Assembly (NCBI GenBank): GCA_945787715.1
Contig: CALZJE010000013.1
Location: 1 to 64,000 of the forward strand
DNA from: an uncultured Ectothiorhodospiraceae bacterium
Lineage (GTDB): Bacteria > Pseudomonadota > Gammaproteobacteria > S012-40
DNA length: 64,000 nt
Direction of reading: 5' to 3'
Shown here: one piece after another, positions 56,498 through 62,247 of the stretch
Numbering within the stretch: position 1 is the stretch's first letter
Layout: each line of letters starts with the position of its first letter
The notes under the pieces: generated by a model
What the model was told of the DNA's origin: nothing
Seen by the model: only the letters and a program-made list of their open reading frames with translations
The model's database searches: none
Position numbers and translations under genes: made by a program

Positions 56498-56667
56498 TCT
56501 AAACAAGACTCAGCCAAACACGAAAGCTGATTTGCCAGCGGCTGTCGCGTGATTTTAAAGTGTTGCCGACACGGATGTCGGCGTCAAACACCATGGATTG
56601 GTTATTGTGTCTTCAAAATCATGCGACAGTTGCTGGCAAATTCACATCAGGCTGAGTTTTGTTTAGA
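56498..56667 (+). ncRNA. Large structured element, candidate structured RNA or mobile hairpin
   Basis: Outer stem 56498-56515 with 56650-56667: 18 pairs, 17 Watson-Crick and one G.U. After an asymmetric internal loop, a second stem 56531-56560 with 56611-56640: 30 pairs, 26 Watson-Crick, three G.U, one A-C mismatch. The centre holds a perfect hairpin GCCGACA-CGGA-TGTCGGC (56565-56582) and a further AT-rich loop with GGA. In plus-strand RNA the four exceptions are G.U; on the minus strand they would be C-A mismatches. It has no protein frame. No family recognised. Confidence 0.6.
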
Positions 56668-56740
56668 AGCAAGAATTAAAAAACTTAATATAAATAGATA
56701 ATCTGTCGTAATTAGATTATGGCATTGATACAGACCTCTT

Positions 56741-57556
56741 ATGAGTAAAACATTACTAATAGTTGATGATGAAAGAAACATTGTTTCAGCATTGAAGCGA
56801 CTTTTTCGCCGAGAGGATGTTGAGGTTTTAACCGCCGACAGTGGTGCAAGCGGACTTGAAATATTAAACAGCACAAAAATAGGCGTAATTCTATCTGATC
56901 ACATGATGCCAGAAATGACCGGCGTTGAGTTTTTAAGGCAAGCACAAGAAATCCAACCAGATACTGTTCGTATTGTATTAAGTGGATATACTGATCTAAA
57001 AACCATAGTAGATTCAATTAATAAGGGAGCGATTTGGCGGTTTTTAACTAAACCATGGGATGATGAGCTGCTTAAAAATACTGTTTATGAGGCATTTGAA
57101 AATTACCAACTAAAAGAAACTAACAAGCAGCTGACAAAAGAACTCTCGGAAAAAAATGAAACTCTACGTGTGTACACAAATGTACTAGAAGGAGTCATTG
57201 AGGAAAAAACTCAATCTCTTGCATTCAATCAAAAGGCATTGCAAATTTCGCATGATATCCTCGAACAATTGGATGTCGCTATTATGGGTGTCGATGAAGC
57301 TGGGACCATCGTTATTGCCAATCGGTATGCGCATAAGTATTTGTCTGTAGGAGGTAAATTGATGCTGGGAAAAAATATAACATCAGTTTTCCCGATCGAA
57401 TTTTGTGAAGCTGTATTGCAGACTGATTCGTCAACGCATCATACTTTAGCCGATAGTAGTTTGTCAGGCGAAAAACTAAATGCGAGTGTTATAGCACTTC
57501 AGCCACCTGCTCTGGCAAAAGGGTTTATCCTAACTTTTTCAAAAAGTATGGAATAG
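56741..57556 (+). CDS. Response regulator, REC domain with PAS-like C-terminus
   Basis: 271 residues. REC about 1-120 with D9-D10 (LIVDDE), acceptor aspartate in LSDHMMPEMTG (about 53), then RIVLSGYTDLKTI and the late lysine in FLTKPWDDEL. The KPWDD end is typical of RpfG-like receivers. A coiled coil (about 120-165, KQLTKELSEKNETLRVYTNV) leads to a PAS-like domain (about 170-265, ILEQLDVAIMGVDEAGTIVI). No enzymatic output. First of a cluster of signalling genes; a 108-residue protein starts 5 bases after it. Confidence 0.88.
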   Translation: MSKTLLIVDDERNIVSALKRLFRREDVEVLTADSGASGLEILNSTKIGVILSDHMMPEMTGVEFLRQAQEIQPDTVRIVLSGYTDLKTIVDSINKGAIWRFLTKPWDDELLKNTVYEAFENYQLKETNKQLTKELSEKNETLRVYTNVLEGVIEEKTQSLAFNQKALQISHDILEQLDVAIMGVDEAGTIVIANRYAHKYLSVGGKLMLGKNITSVFPIEFCEAVLQTDSSTHHTLADSSLSGEKLNASVIALQPPALAKGFILTFSKSME

Positions 57557-57561
57557 CGACA

Positions 57562-57888
57562 ATGAAAACCACAATTGAAATGCCTATTGAAGAGTTAAAA
57601 GTTGGCGATTGCACAGCAGCACCGATAATTACTGAAAATGGAGTGTGTATACTCGAAGCAGAAGTGGTGTTGACGGCTGTTCATATAGCTTCTTTGCTTA
57701 AAAAGAATATTAAAACGGTTGTTATTGAAAAAGAACAAAAATATACGGCTGGCGAAGTTGCGGTATACAAAGAGCAATTAATTGTTAATTTGAGAAAACA
57801 ATTTAAATATTACAAAGAAGAGGATACTGTAAAAAAAAACCTAATAAAACTTTTATACCGTCATTTCATGCATAAATATGAAAGCTGA
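57562..57888 (+). CDS. Small protein with an HD-GYP-associated module, free-standing
   Basis: 108 residues. IEELKVGDCTAAPIITENGV followed by CILEAEVVLTAVHIASLL and KNIKTVVIEKEQ is the same pattern (L-K-x-G...A-x-x-I...G-x-x-x-L-x-x-x-x-x-L-x-x-x-x-I-x-x-L) as the last about 60 residues of the REC-HD-GYP protein at 59021. The C-terminal half is basic and helical. No enzymatic site. Its stop is 11 bases inside the next gene (overlap), so it is co-translated with the HDOD protein. Confidence 0.6.
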   Translation: MKTTIEMPIEELKVGDCTAAPIITENGVCILEAEVVLTAVHIASLLKKNIKTVVIEKEQKYTAGEVAVYKEQLIVNLRKQFKYYKEEDTVKKNLIKLLYRHFMHKYES

Positions 57889-58711
57889 TATCAATCATTT
57901 CATAGCGGGCATTGAAGAATTGCCATCGTTCTCTGATTCAGTGAGAAAGATAATTGATCTTTTTAATCAGGGAGAAGTTGATGTTAAGAATCTTGAGCAG
58001 ATTCTTGCGCATGATGCTGGTATCACCACTCAGGTACTGCGCATCGCAAACTCTCCATTTTTCGGATTCAACGGTAAAATTCGATCGATTAAGGACGCTT
58101 GCATGATACTTGGCTTGCCAAGTGTGTACAACTTAGTCACAGCAGCAGCAATATTAGATCGTTTCCCTGACGAAGAAAATAGCGTCATAAATTACAACAA
58201 TTTTTGGCTGCACTCCATGGCGGTTGGTATTGCTACTAAAGATATTATGGAAAAAGCAAATAAAGTGAGTGATAGTGCGTTCCTCTCAGGTTTGATTCAC
58301 GATATTGGCAAGCTGGTTTTAGACCGGTATTTTAAAGAGGAGTATCTCCAAATTGTGCAATATCAAAAGGAACACCAGTGCCCTATGATTGATGCAGAAA
58401 GAGCGGTGATAGCCATGGATAATGCTGAAATAGGCGCTATGTTACTAGAATCCTGGAAATTACCGGATGAAATTGTCTCTATCACGAGAAATCATCATAA
58501 GCTGAATACAGAACAGTACCTGGATGTTTCTTGTGCAATTCACTTGGCAAATATTCTTGTGAAAGGATTGAATATTGGAGATAGTGACGGAAATCATATC
58601 TCAAACATGTCCCCTAAAGCATTGTCTTATTTAGAGCTAAGCTGGGATGACTTATCATCACTGCTTCTTGTTATTGAAAAACATGTAAAAGACTATGAGG
58701 TTTTAAGTTAG
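57878..58711 (+). CDS. HDOD-domain signalling protein
   Basis: 277 residues. An HDOD domain fills most of the length: ELPSFSDSVRKIIDLFNQGE, LEQILAHDAGITTQVLRIAN, then SPFFGFNGKIRSIKDACMIL, and SGLIHDIGKLVLDRYF with the HD pair kept. HDOD proteins are HD-related and usually non-catalytic, acting in c-di-GMP and chemotaxis-linked regulation. Start overlaps the small protein upstream, indicating one transcript from 56741. Confidence 0.9.
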   Translation: MKADINHFIAGIEELPSFSDSVRKIIDLFNQGEVDVKNLEQILAHDAGITTQVLRIANSPFFGFNGKIRSIKDACMILGLPSVYNLVTAAAILDRFPDEENSVINYNNFWLHSMAVGIATKDIMEKANKVSDSAFLSGLIHDIGKLVLDRYFKEEYLQIVQYQKEHQCPMIDAERAVIAMDNAEIGAMLLESWKLPDEIVSITRNHHKLNTEQYLDVSCAIHLANILVKGLNIGDSDGNHISNMSPKALSYLELSWDDLSSLLLVIEKHVKDYEVLS

Positions 58712-59020
58712 TCCAGTGCAAGTGAAATTGTCTTTGAAAGTTGTTTTATTAATTTCGCGCGCCACACCCATGCCACCCATTGCCCATATTTTTCCCTAGT
58801 TTTACCACACGTATAACAACCTAAAAAAAGCATTCCGATTCTAAAGAAAAGCATTTGAATTGACGAAACTGTAATGAATCACCAGTTTGGTGAGATCCGG
58901 AAATTTAGTATTTTTTATTGTTTAACATTTGTATTAATTCCTAGTGGCTAACAATGCACCGTTGGTTTACATTCGATTTGGGCTTCTTAATGGCGAAATT
59001 TAATTTATCAAACGAGAGAT
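58712..59020. other. Spacer between HDOD and REC-HD-GYP genes
   Basis: 309 bases, no gene. GAGAG a few bases before the ATG at 59021 is the ribosome-binding site. A promoter is likely here but not identified. Confidence 0.45.
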
Positions 59021-60376
59021 ATGGATATCAAAACTGATAAAAATGCTACTACTAACGAGAAACTAGAGAAATGCTCAGTTCTCTTGGTTGATGACGAAAG
59101 CAACATACTAAAATCACTGACTCGACTTTTCAAAAAAGACGGTTATAAAATGTTTTCCGCAGAAAGTGGAGAGCAAGCATTGGAGTTAGTGAAAAGCATG
59201 GATTTTGATCTGGTCATTTCAGATATGCGGATGCCAGGTATGTCAGGTGTTGAACTGCTAGAGAATGTTAAAACACATTCTCCTAATACAATGCGAATAT
59301 TACTCACTGGATTTGCAGATATTTCATCAATTGTAGATGCAGTGAATAAAAGTGGTATTTATCGTTACGTAGCGAAACCCTGGGATGATCAAGATTTTCG
59401 ATTAACTGTTAAAAGTGCGTTAAAACAAAAATTTCTCGAATGTGAGCGAATTAGATTAGAAATACTCACAAAAAAACAAAATGATGAGTTAATAACTCTC
59501 AATGAAAACCTAGAAGAAAAAGTAAAAAGACGTACTCAGAAGATTAGTGACATGATGGAAGAGCTTGAGGCGGTAAATTCATCATTGCGTAAAAGCTACA
59601 TGTCGATAATAAAAGCATTTTCCAGTATGATCGATTCAAGAAGTACTTTGCTAGAAGGGCATTCACGCCGTGTTGCAGATCTAGCGAGAAGTGTTGCTGT
59701 AGAAATGAACTTCTCAGACAAAGAAGTGCAAGACATATTTCTCGCTGGTTTGTTGCATGATATTGGCAAGGTTGGACTTTCAGACAATATTATCAGTAAA
59801 CCAGACTCCATGTTAGTCAAAGCAGAACAAGACAAGGCAAGAATGCATCCTTTTTGGGGTGAGGCTTTACTCATGGGCATAGAGCCATTGCAAAATGTCT
59901 CTCGCTTTATTCGTTACCATCATGAAAGATATGACGGGACAGGATTTCCAGATCAATTAAGTGGGCAAGACATACCCATTGAATCTCGTATCTTGGCAAT
60001 TGCTAATGATTTTGACGCGTTAAAAATTGGCACAATGTTTTCTCGTAAATATACCAAAGAAGAAGCATTGAAATTCATATTAAGTCACCGAGAAGATTAC
60101 TACGATCCTGAAGTTGTTAAGGCTTTTGTCGCAATCCATAAACAAAAAGAAGATAGCAATAAGCAAGGATTTGACAGTAAGTTGGAAATGCATACTTCGG
60201 AATTGAAACCGGGAATGGTTGTAGCGCGAGATATTCATACGAAAGATGGAAGGTTATTATTACCTCGAGGTCATGTACTTGAAAAGTCGAGTATTGACAA
60301 GTTGAGGAACCTAGAAAGAACGTTAAATGATATCTTTAAAGTTAAAATAAAGTTTCGGACAGTTCGGTATGACTAA
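59021..60376 (+). CDS. RpfG-type REC-HD-GYP c-di-GMP phosphodiesterase
   Basis: 451 residues. REC (about 17-135): LLVDDESNIL, acceptor in LVISDMRMPGMSG, lysine in VAKPWDDQDF. A coiled linker leads to an HD-GYP domain (about 195-370): GHSRRVADLARSVAVEMNF, LHDIGKVGLSDNIISKPDS, HPFWGEALL, RYHHERYDGTGFPDQLSGQD. The HD pair and H-H-E-R-Y-D-G are kept, and the GYP motif reads G-F-P, a frequent variant, so c-di-GMP hydrolysis is likely. C-terminal about 60 residues (ELKPGMVVARDIHTKDGRLL) match the free-standing small protein at 57562. Confidence 0.92.
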   Translation: MDIKTDKNATTNEKLEKCSVLLVDDESNILKSLTRLFKKDGYKMFSAESGEQALELVKSMDFDLVISDMRMPGMSGVELLENVKTHSPNTMRILLTGFADISSIVDAVNKSGIYRYVAKPWDDQDFRLTVKSALKQKFLECERIRLEILTKKQNDELITLNENLEEKVKRRTQKISDMMEELEAVNSSLRKSYMSIIKAFSSMIDSRSTLLEGHSRRVADLARSVAVEMNFSDKEVQDIFLAGLLHDIGKVGLSDNIISKPDSMLVKAEQDKARMHPFWGEALLMGIEPLQNVSRFIRYHHERYDGTGFPDQLSGQDIPIESRILAIANDFDALKIGTMFSRKYTKEEALKFILSHREDYYDPEVVKAFVAIHKQKEDSNKQGFDSKLEMHTSELKPGMVVARDIHTKDGRLLLPRGHVLEKSSIDKLRNLERTLNDIFKVKIKFRTVRYD

Positions 60377-60488
60377 GGGGCTGTCAACGTTCATCATCTG
60401 ATAGTTTCTATTTTCATTGAACACATCAAATAGATGATGATTAGTTTTTAGATTTTTATTACTCATTTAAATAGATATATTCTTAACC

Positions 60489-60905
60489 ATGTCAAAAGAT
60501 AAAATTGAAATCGATATATTTTCTGGTTTAAAAGCACTTAGTGAATCTGCTTTTCCAAAAGTGTGTAAGAGCTGTGGTAAAAAATACGAAACAGCTGAAC
60601 AATATTTACATGAGACTGAGACTATCAGTGGATTAAAATCAGGCTTAAAAGCCGCTGAAGAAGATGATGGTGTAATGGTTATAGAAGCATTTAGAAATTG
60701 TTCTTGTGGTTCAACACTGATGGATTATTTTTCGGATCGACGCGATACAAGTGAAAAAGGACTGAAAAGACGAGAGAGATTCGCAGATCTATTAACAAAA
60801 TTAGAAAGAAATGGTATCGAGGTTTCTGTCGCTCGCGAGGAGTTGATTAAAGTTCTAAGAGGTCAATATAGTGAGATTCTCAATGAATTCGTAAACAAGA
60901 AATAG
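60489..60905 (+). CDS. Zinc-ribbon-like protein of unknown function
   Basis: 138 residues. Two cysteine pairs: VCKSCGKKYETAEQYL (C-x2-C, about 25-28) and NCSCGSTLMDYF (C-x-C, about 75-77), enough for a zinc site. The second is followed by FSDRRDTSEKGLKRRERFAD, a strongly basic stretch. The C-terminus is helical. No family recognised, but its place among HDOD/HD-GYP genes suggests a role in the same pathway. Confidence 0.6.
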   Translation: MSKDKIEIDIFSGLKALSESAFPKVCKSCGKKYETAEQYLHETETISGLKSGLKAAEEDDGVMVIEAFRNCSCGSTLMDYFSDRRDTSEKGLKRRERFADLLTKLERNGIEVSVAREELIKVLRGQYSEILNEFVNKK

Positions 60906-60906
60906 T

Positions 60907-61290
60907 GTGTCTACTTTTCATGAACATAATTCGATAGGATACAGCTGTGAAAAAAATCACAATGTTGACTTTTCAGATTCCCATTTGAATATTAGATATA
61001 CACCTCTAATGCTCGATATAATTATGGTGGCGATTGTGTTGCTCGTCATAGGTATTACATGTACATTATACAGCGCTTCGTTTGAGCAGCAACGAATGCG
61101 TTTGACTGAACTCACAAAAAATCAAGCTAGATTGATCAGTGCAATGGGTGATCATAAAAATGTACACCTTGATAATACTATTGCTAAAAGTGCTGTATGT
61201 ACTACTTTAAGCCAAATTGTGCAGGCACACAAAAGTATAAATAAGTTGCTGCTTAGTGCTATTGGTTTACCAGTACTTAAAAGCAAATAG
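60907..61290 (+). CDS. Small single-pass membrane protein
   Basis: 127 residues, start GTG one base after the preceding stop. One membrane helix about 35-57 (LMLDIIMVAIVLLVIGITCT). The N-terminal part is polar with several histidines (FHEHNSIGYSCEKNHNVDF), the C-terminal part helical. No family recognised. Translational coupling with the zinc-ribbon gene suggests they act together. Confidence 0.55.
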   Translation: MSTFHEHNSIGYSCEKNHNVDFSDSHLNIRYTPLMLDIIMVAIVLLVIGITCTLYSASFEQQRMRLTELTKNQARLISAMGDHKNVHLDNTIAKSAVCTTLSQIVQAHKSINKLLLSAIGLPVLKSK

Positions 61291-61395
61291 AAAACAGATG
61301 TTACCTGTTTTAACGTTAATAAGAAGATCTAAATAACTAAAATATCTATACTGGTTTAACTTATTTAGTAAAAAATTTGCAAAAGCAGTAATCAT

Positions 61396-62247
61396 GTGAC
61401 AATTGATTCAAAAACAATCTTTGCCAATCTTAAAAAACAGCTTTTGAGCGGTGATCTAACATTACCAGGGCTACCGGACATTGCACAGCGAGTTCAACGT
61501 GCTATTAGCAACGAAGATTATAATATTTCGGATGTTGCTCGAATTATTCAAACCGATATCCCTCTTTCCGGAAGAATTATCCAAGTAGCAAATAGTCCAC
61601 TCTACAAAGGTGTCGTACCTGTTGAAAGTTGTCATGCGGCGGTCGTTCGATTGGGGATGAAAGTTGTACGAAGTCTTGTAACAAGCTTTGCTGTAAGAAG
61701 ACTTTATACATCCAAAAATTCAAAATCACGGAAACATATGGAGCAGCTTTGGAAGCATAGTGTAAAAATCGGCGCAATTAGTTTTACACTTGCACGTGTG
61801 ACACCTGGGTTTGATCCTGAAAGAGCGATGCTTGCAGGTTTAACGCATGATATTGGTGAACTTATCATTCTTCAATATACCGAATTAAATCCAAACTTAT
61901 TAACGAATGAGTTGGCGGTGCAAGAGGTTGTTAAAACCTATAAAACCCGACTCAGCGGGGTCATTCTCAAACATTGGCGCTTCGATGAAGAGTTTATAAA
62001 AGCTGCACTGGGAGCTGAAGATTGGTTACGCAATCCTTCGGATACTGCAGATTTAGCAGATGTTGTCATGGCGGCGCATATCATGGAGATGACACTGGTA
62101 AATCAGCTTCCTGAAGGTGTCGACGCTTTTAACGATTTACCTGTTTATCTTAAGTTCCCCGTATTTAAACTGGGTGAGTTTGCTCATCGTGAATTGATGA
62201 TGGAATCGCAGGATGAGATTTCCGAATTGCAGAAATTGCTGCGCTGA
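61396..62247 (+). CDS. HDOD-domain signalling protein, second in cluster
   Basis: 283 residues, start GTG (ATG two bases before it leads to an immediate stop and is not used). LLSGDLTLPGLPDIAQRVQR, IIQTDIPLSGRIIQVANSPL, HAAVVRLGMKVVRSLVTSF and LAGLTHDIGELIILQY are the HDOD domain elements. About 30% or less similar by eye to the HDOD protein at 57878. Ends 10 bases before the convergent rsgA stop. Confidence 0.9.
   Translation: MTIDSKTIFANLKKQLLSGDLTLPGLPDIAQRVQRAISNEDYNISDVARIIQTDIPLSGRIIQVANSPLYKGVVPVESCHAAVVRLGMKVVRSLVTSFAVRRLYTSKNSKSRKHMEQLWKHSVKIGAISFTLARVTPGFDPERAMLAGLTHDIGELIILQYTELNPNLLTNELAVQEVVKTYKTRLSGVILKHWRFDEEFIKAALGAEDWLRNPSDTADLADVVMAAHIMEMTLVNQLPEGVDAFNDLPVYLKFPVFKLGEFAHRELMMESQDEISELQKLLR

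Follow-up and report, generated by a model that had tools for sequence, protein, structure and literature searches.

Gene content and layout of the cluster

The window analyzed in this study is a 64,000-nucleotide stretch of DNA from an uncultured Ectothiorhodospiraceae bacterium. Seven open reading frames (P1–P7), all on the + strand, were found where they had been predicted, at positions 56741–62247, flanked by nuoN and by rsgA/orn (Table 1). The original prediction described seven genes in one orientation that encode two receivers and two HDOD proteins but no histidine kinase; the reading frames and a Pfam scan of the seven proteins, which detected no histidine kinase in the cluster, bear this out. 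Both P3 and P7 pass the cut-off of the HDOD family (PF08668, 22.9 bits), with 189.7 and 154.4 bits, respectively. P2 and P6 reach no Pfam or NCBIfam family above cut-off.

Table 1. Genes and gap of the cluster, in positions of the window
Feature	Positions	Strand	Size and basis
P1, REC-PAS response regulator	56741..57556	+	271 aa; Pfam Response_reg 81.8 bits, PAS 27.2 bits
P2, companion of HDOD	57562..57888	+	108 aa; profile comparison with P4 C-terminal domain
P3, HDOD protein (HDODa)	57878..58711	+	277 aa; Pfam HDOD 189.7 bits
Gap between P3 and P4	58712..59020	no strand	kinase position in relatives such as G026
P4, REC-HD-GYP response regulator	59021..60376	+	451 aa; Pfam HD_5 and Response_reg; NF053512 531 bits
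P5, zinc-ribbon-like protein	60489..60905	+	138 aa; 24-row alignment, neighbourhoods
P6, single-pass membrane protein	60907..61290	+	127 aa, GTG start; matches to sensor proteins
P7, HDOD protein (HDODb)	61396..62247	+	283 aa, GTG start; Pfam HDOD 154.4 bits; synteny

The genes had also been described as partly overlapping; this is correct for the P2/P3 pair (11 nt) and for no other, the remaining pairs being separated by gaps of up to 309 nt. Similarly, P5 and P6 had been called unrecognized and translationally coupled. Neither reaches a family cut-off, and they lie 1 nt apart; their coupling hinges on a GTG start. P3 and P4 are 309 nt apart, P4 and P5 112 nt, and P6 and P7 105 nt, so that several transcription units are possible. 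A scan of the + strand found no terminator-like site between the seven genes, and a search for a c-di-GMP riboswitch found none.

Upstream of P1, at 56500–56670, the window carries one 171-nt palindromic element, which is present in eight copies in the genome and has an RNA fold z of −9.5. With 32.6 bits, it stays below the gathering score (43) of the Rfam family TwoAYGGAY, which one sister copy (L101) passes with 43.8 bits. Near another copy in this genome, the stretch L100:1800-2052 matches a group II intron with 57.1 bits (cut-off 49).

P7 belongs to the nuoN–rsgA–orn neighbourhood

Of the 12 other family members, 11 yielded a nuoN gene, and all 11 loci were read. P7 lies immediately 3′ of nuoN at eight of them (L073, L075, L076, L077, L078, L081, L082 and L083) and two genes beyond nuoN at a ninth (L080); it was not seen at two, one of which is on a short contig. 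In G001, which belongs to the same genus, the order is nuoN–P7–rsgA–orn; nuoN and P7 are 304 nt apart there, and P1–P6 are absent. None of the 12 other family genomes contains a match to P2 or P5. P1 is matched convincingly in one of them, G004, at a different site and beside a class kinase (described below) and a P4 gene. Among the genomes compared, the closest relatives of P1 and P4 are ∼51% and ∼46% identical, and no near donor was seen. No breakpoints emerged from a comparison of the nuoN–P7 spacers, those of two relatives failing to align with the window's. Judged from this synteny, P7 is an old resident gene of the nuoN–rsgA–orn neighbourhood, outside the module to which P1–P5 belong, and would have an independent job.

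These observations bear on the proposal of a single self-contained operon and module comprising all seven genes. Their common strand, close spacing and the + strand scan without terminator-like sites between genes agree with it, but P7 is in place without P1–P6 in nine relatives, P6 matches no protein of the module loci, and three gaps exceed 100 nt; we regard the proposal as very improbable. The seven genes are real, but they are not a single unit.

P1 marks a conserved two-component module

The receiver of P1 contains the phosphoacceptor D53 and K104, as identified by motif scan. The P1 search profile consisted of the coil and PAS part, leaving out the common receiver. At E ≤ 1.2e-14, it found P1 orthologues in 20 of the 369 genomes of the class; the next matches start at 3.3e-12 and are mostly located within long multidomain frames. 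We then have 20 neighbourhoods of 8 kb radius, 19 from outside the window's genome plus G004, although some of these views end at contig edges, L186 most of all. Within this distance of P1, one class of histidine kinase (hereafter class kinase) is encoded at 17 of the 20 loci, HDOD at 14, REC-HD-GYP at 11 and P2 at 8, whereas the short REC and one Arf/Ras-like GTPase are encoded at 4 each and P5 at 1. At L018, for example, the genes are ordered P1–P2–HDOD–HK–P4–REC. As control, the 11 nuoN loci were inspected together with three 18-kb segments taken from the window, and no P1, P4 or class kinase was found in them.

Like the kinase-containing P1/P2/HDOD/HK/REC-HD-GYP module defined here, the cluster in the window holds P1, HDOD and REC-HD-GYP genes together, but it lacks the class kinase; the nearest intact one is on contig C43. 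On the evidence of gene neighbourhoods, P1–P5 belong to the co-conserved module. The comparison with relatives thus upheld a signalling module with unassigned parts in the case of P1–P5, among which P5 is the unassigned part; P6 and P7 are scattered or without co-conservation, and fall outside it. The module is not self-contained: its almost constant partner kinase is not encoded in the cluster and probably acts from another contig.

In fuller versions of the module, the gene of the Arf/Ras-like small GTPase lies beside a second kinase (L123:5041-5694, L179:3108-3791 and L177:13388-14134). Close to some relatives' loci there are genes that we take, from their sequences, to be Che-type. Together with the GTPase gene at several loci, they hint at motility or surface behaviour.

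A class kinase is located on another contig

At E ≤ 1e-110, the class kinase is present in all 20 P1 genomes and in 13 of the 349 others (p 1e-24), and omission of the three genomes whose sequences went into the model leaves 17 of 17 versus 13 of 349 (p 2e-21); both p values overstate independence, since the genomes are related to one another. At a looser threshold of 1e-75, the counts are 20 of 20 and 42 of 349. The genome studied here encodes one intact class kinase, at C43:13785-15809, which is 674 residues in length and contains PAS domains together with HisKA/HATPase. Two pieces of a class kinase, in different frames and at a contig edge, were also observed at L054:2449-3508, on the 3.5-kb contig C224; they represent either a pseudogene or an assembly error.

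Judged by gene content, G138 may serve as a precedent for a kinase in trans; there, the class kinase is encoded on contigs other than the one carrying P1–P2–HDOD. In the tree, the C43 kinase nests among the module kinases, which is weak evidence, as the alignment was built from module loci. Two observations count against action in trans: the class kinase is also present in 13 genomes that lack P1, and the C43 kinase has neighbours of its own, one receiver protein and one second kinase, encoded on the same strand 350 nt downstream. The C43 kinase could serve these instead.

P1–P4 might also take phosphate from unrelated kinases or small phosphodonors, the module being a hub for several inputs. 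The two to four kinases found at several module loci (L061, L016 and L177) and the ∼49 kinase-like matches in this genome would fit such a hub; yet one kinase class tracks P1 far above chance, and we consider shared input quite unlikely.

One kinase fossil in the gap between P3 and P4 was considered and rejected. In tblastn searches with 12 module kinases, the matches inside the 309 nt were not significant; the single match with E < 0.01 (8e-5) is located at the beginning of the P4 receiver.

P4 is a probable c-di-GMP phosphodiesterase

P4 matches the NosR-family model of NCBIfam (NF053512) with 531.5 bits (cut-off 400), over model positions 1–420 of 422. Its receiver contains D68 and K119, as identified by motif scan. 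In the output domain, the HD at 246 and the HHE at 300 are kept, with GFP in place of GYP; one module protein at L016 likewise reads GFP. The REC-HD-GYP domains expected of the one c-di-GMP phosphodiesterase were confirmed by the Pfam matches (REC and HD_5), and its activity is putative. Based on these matches and motifs, P4 is a probable c-di-GMP phosphodiesterase.

P2 is a companion of the HDOD protein P3

The P2 family (15 rows) was compared with the C-terminal domain of P4-type proteins in one single profile comparison, which gave a probability of 96.8% and E 2.2e-10. P2 is a freestanding relative of the P4 C-terminal domain, to which a helical tail is added. At 21 of the 22 loci examined outside the window, the gene immediately following P2 encodes an HDOD protein, and the two genes mostly overlap or lie within 15 nt of each other; at the remaining locus (L058), P2 is likewise followed by an HDOD gene, whose predicted start is placed too far upstream to be counted. 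P2 is matched strongly (E < 1e-8) in eight genomes, all of which contain P1. Further genomes have weaker matches, which include RNA polymerase frames as well as P2-HDOD loci that lack P1.

The predicted model of P2 has a pLDDT of 76.7. In PDB profile searches, P2 matched segments of RNA polymerase beta and beta′, with a best E of 2e-6, and Foldseek returned RNA polymerase and MoeA (best E 0.02). A function in transcription was set aside, and the likeness was read as one shared small beta domain. We propose that P2 is a putative co-translated adaptor of HDOD. HDOD proteins are common, but to our knowledge they have no agreed biochemical role. With a gene that immediately precedes HDOD at 21 of 22 loci and a relationship to a domain of the partner phosphodiesterase, P2 is a candidate binding partner of HDOD. 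As the module brings together kinase, receivers and effector, it lends itself to studies of HDOD regulation.

P5 is a putative accessory and P6 is probably a sensor stub

Against the CSL zinc ribbon (PF05207), P5 scores 19.4 bits, below the cut-off of 29.2; 7 of 24 P5 family members match this family at E ≤ 0.01. The 24-row alignment contains four invariant cysteines, C26, C29, C71 and C73 in P5. The PDB profile matches of P5 are eukaryotic zinc fingers over ∼24 residues. No fold is claimed for P5: the mean pLDDT of the AlphaFold2 model is 66.1, and re-examination of the Foldseek matches gave nothing above Z 3.3.

P5 was found in 12 genomes, 7 of which contain P1 (p 3e-7), or 6 of 11 without the window's genome (p 3e-6). 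Among 25 P5 loci in named genomes (L120 and L125 taken as the same records as the G057 and G048 contigs), P1, P4 or the class kinase is encoded within 8 kb at 15. The other 10 lack module genes within this distance, two of them (L120 and L141) being cut by contig ends next to P5, and P5 lies within 8 kb of P1 at just 1 of 20 P1 loci. The names among the 25 include Marinobacter, Hahellaceae, Oleiphilaceae, Burkholderiales and Desulfobacterota-type. From its conserved cysteines and neighbourhoods, P5 appears to be a module-associated, zinc-ribbon-like accessory, a placement that would link a zinc-ribbon-like family, over part of its distribution, with c-di-GMP signalling.

In three related genomes, a P5-type domain is fused to a CbiX-type chelatase domain (L112:7706-8506, L113:8350-9150 and L114:8482-9294; one of these was scanned with Pfam), and a link of P5 to metal or tetrapyrrole handling is possible. 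At L109:9031-10666 (G313), a PAS-GGDEF (diguanylate cyclase) gene is directly followed by a P5 gene.

Residues 26–109 of P6 are 34% identical to an inner stretch of one 671-residue MHYT/PAS protein, and P6 also matches two other long membrane sensor proteins, more weakly. P6 ends where these proteins continue; by this alignment, it is probably the stub of a membrane sensor protein. It gave no match with the proteins of the module loci. As it matches no module kinase, the idea that P6 is a remnant of the module's own kinase was rejected.

A probable kinase-less copy of the module

We consider it moderately probable that P1–P5, lying between nuoN and the resident P7, are a kinase-less copy of one conserved two-component/c-di-GMP module, which would be driven in trans, lower c-di-GMP and include P2 as an adaptor of HDOD. 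This reading is supported by the co-conservation of P1, P4, HDOD and the class kinase, by the negative control loci and by the presence of P7 in place without P1–P6. Co-conservation, intact receiver sites, the HD motif of P4, the absence of a local kinase and the presence of a class kinase elsewhere in the genome can all be read directly from the DNA. In the proposed mechanism, the C43 kinase would phosphorylate the receivers of P4 and P1 in trans, and phosphorylated P4 would hydrolyze c-di-GMP and so lower its level. P1, which has no enzyme domain, would pass the signal via its PAS domain to the HDOD protein P3; P2, resembling the P4 C-terminal domain, would be the co-translated adaptor in this step. 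P5 would be a metal-binding accessory and P6 a decaying sensor stub. Besides the two points on the kinase given above, the GFP of P4, the 10 of 25 loci at which P5 lies away from the module and its presence near P1 at a single one of 20 P1 loci count against this reading.

The same genes could be a decaying copy that, after losing its kinase, no longer has a coherent function; the C43 kinase would then serve something else. The kinase and the short REC are missing, P6 is stub-like, the three wide spaces and the dispersed repeat upstream of P1 would be in line with decay, and the second class kinase of this genome is in pieces. However, P1, P2, P3, P4 and P5 are full-length and keep their receiver, HD and cysteine residues, and the class kinase is still present here, as in all other P1 genomes. 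We judge decay unlikely and prefer a kinase-less copy driven in trans.

On a broader scale, we tentatively raise the possibility of one widespread, undescribed complex, in which HDOD is co-translated with a small protein similar to the C-terminal domain of its phosphodiesterase partner, REC-PAS, P2-HDOD and REC-HD-GYP assemble on one kinase, and fuller versions add the Arf/Ras-like GTPase and the metal-binding P5. If true, it would join a second-messenger system to a polarity-type GTPase.

Comparison with known systems

Each part of the module is of a known kind; the full gene set was not described in the open papers that we searched. RpfC/RpfG is a system in which one REC-HD-GYP phosphodiesterase is driven by a kinase. 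Different from RpfC/RpfG, the kinase is not adjacent here, and there is an extra HDOD arm.

P4 passes the model of NosR, the REC-HD-GYP response regulator with histidine kinase input of the NosP/NosK/NosR nitric-oxide system (NF053512; PMC12570481). According to PMC12570481, the published B. pseudomallei NosR is degenerate (HG-GTP), whereas P4 keeps HD. REC-PAS, P2, HDOD and P5 are extra here compared to that system, and the Pfam scan of all seven proteins found neither NosP (FIST) nor the NosK kinase in the cluster.

HDOD proteins encoded beside c-di-GMP enzymes are already known (PMC4114195 and PMC9040570). GsmR of Xanthomonas (PMC4114195) and I2285 of Burkholderia, which lies beside the phosphodiesterase CdpA (PMC9040570), share this arrangement with the present cluster, and motility effects were reported for GsmR and I2285/CdpA. 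P3 differs from these proteins in having no receiver and in being encoded after the gene of a small companion protein.
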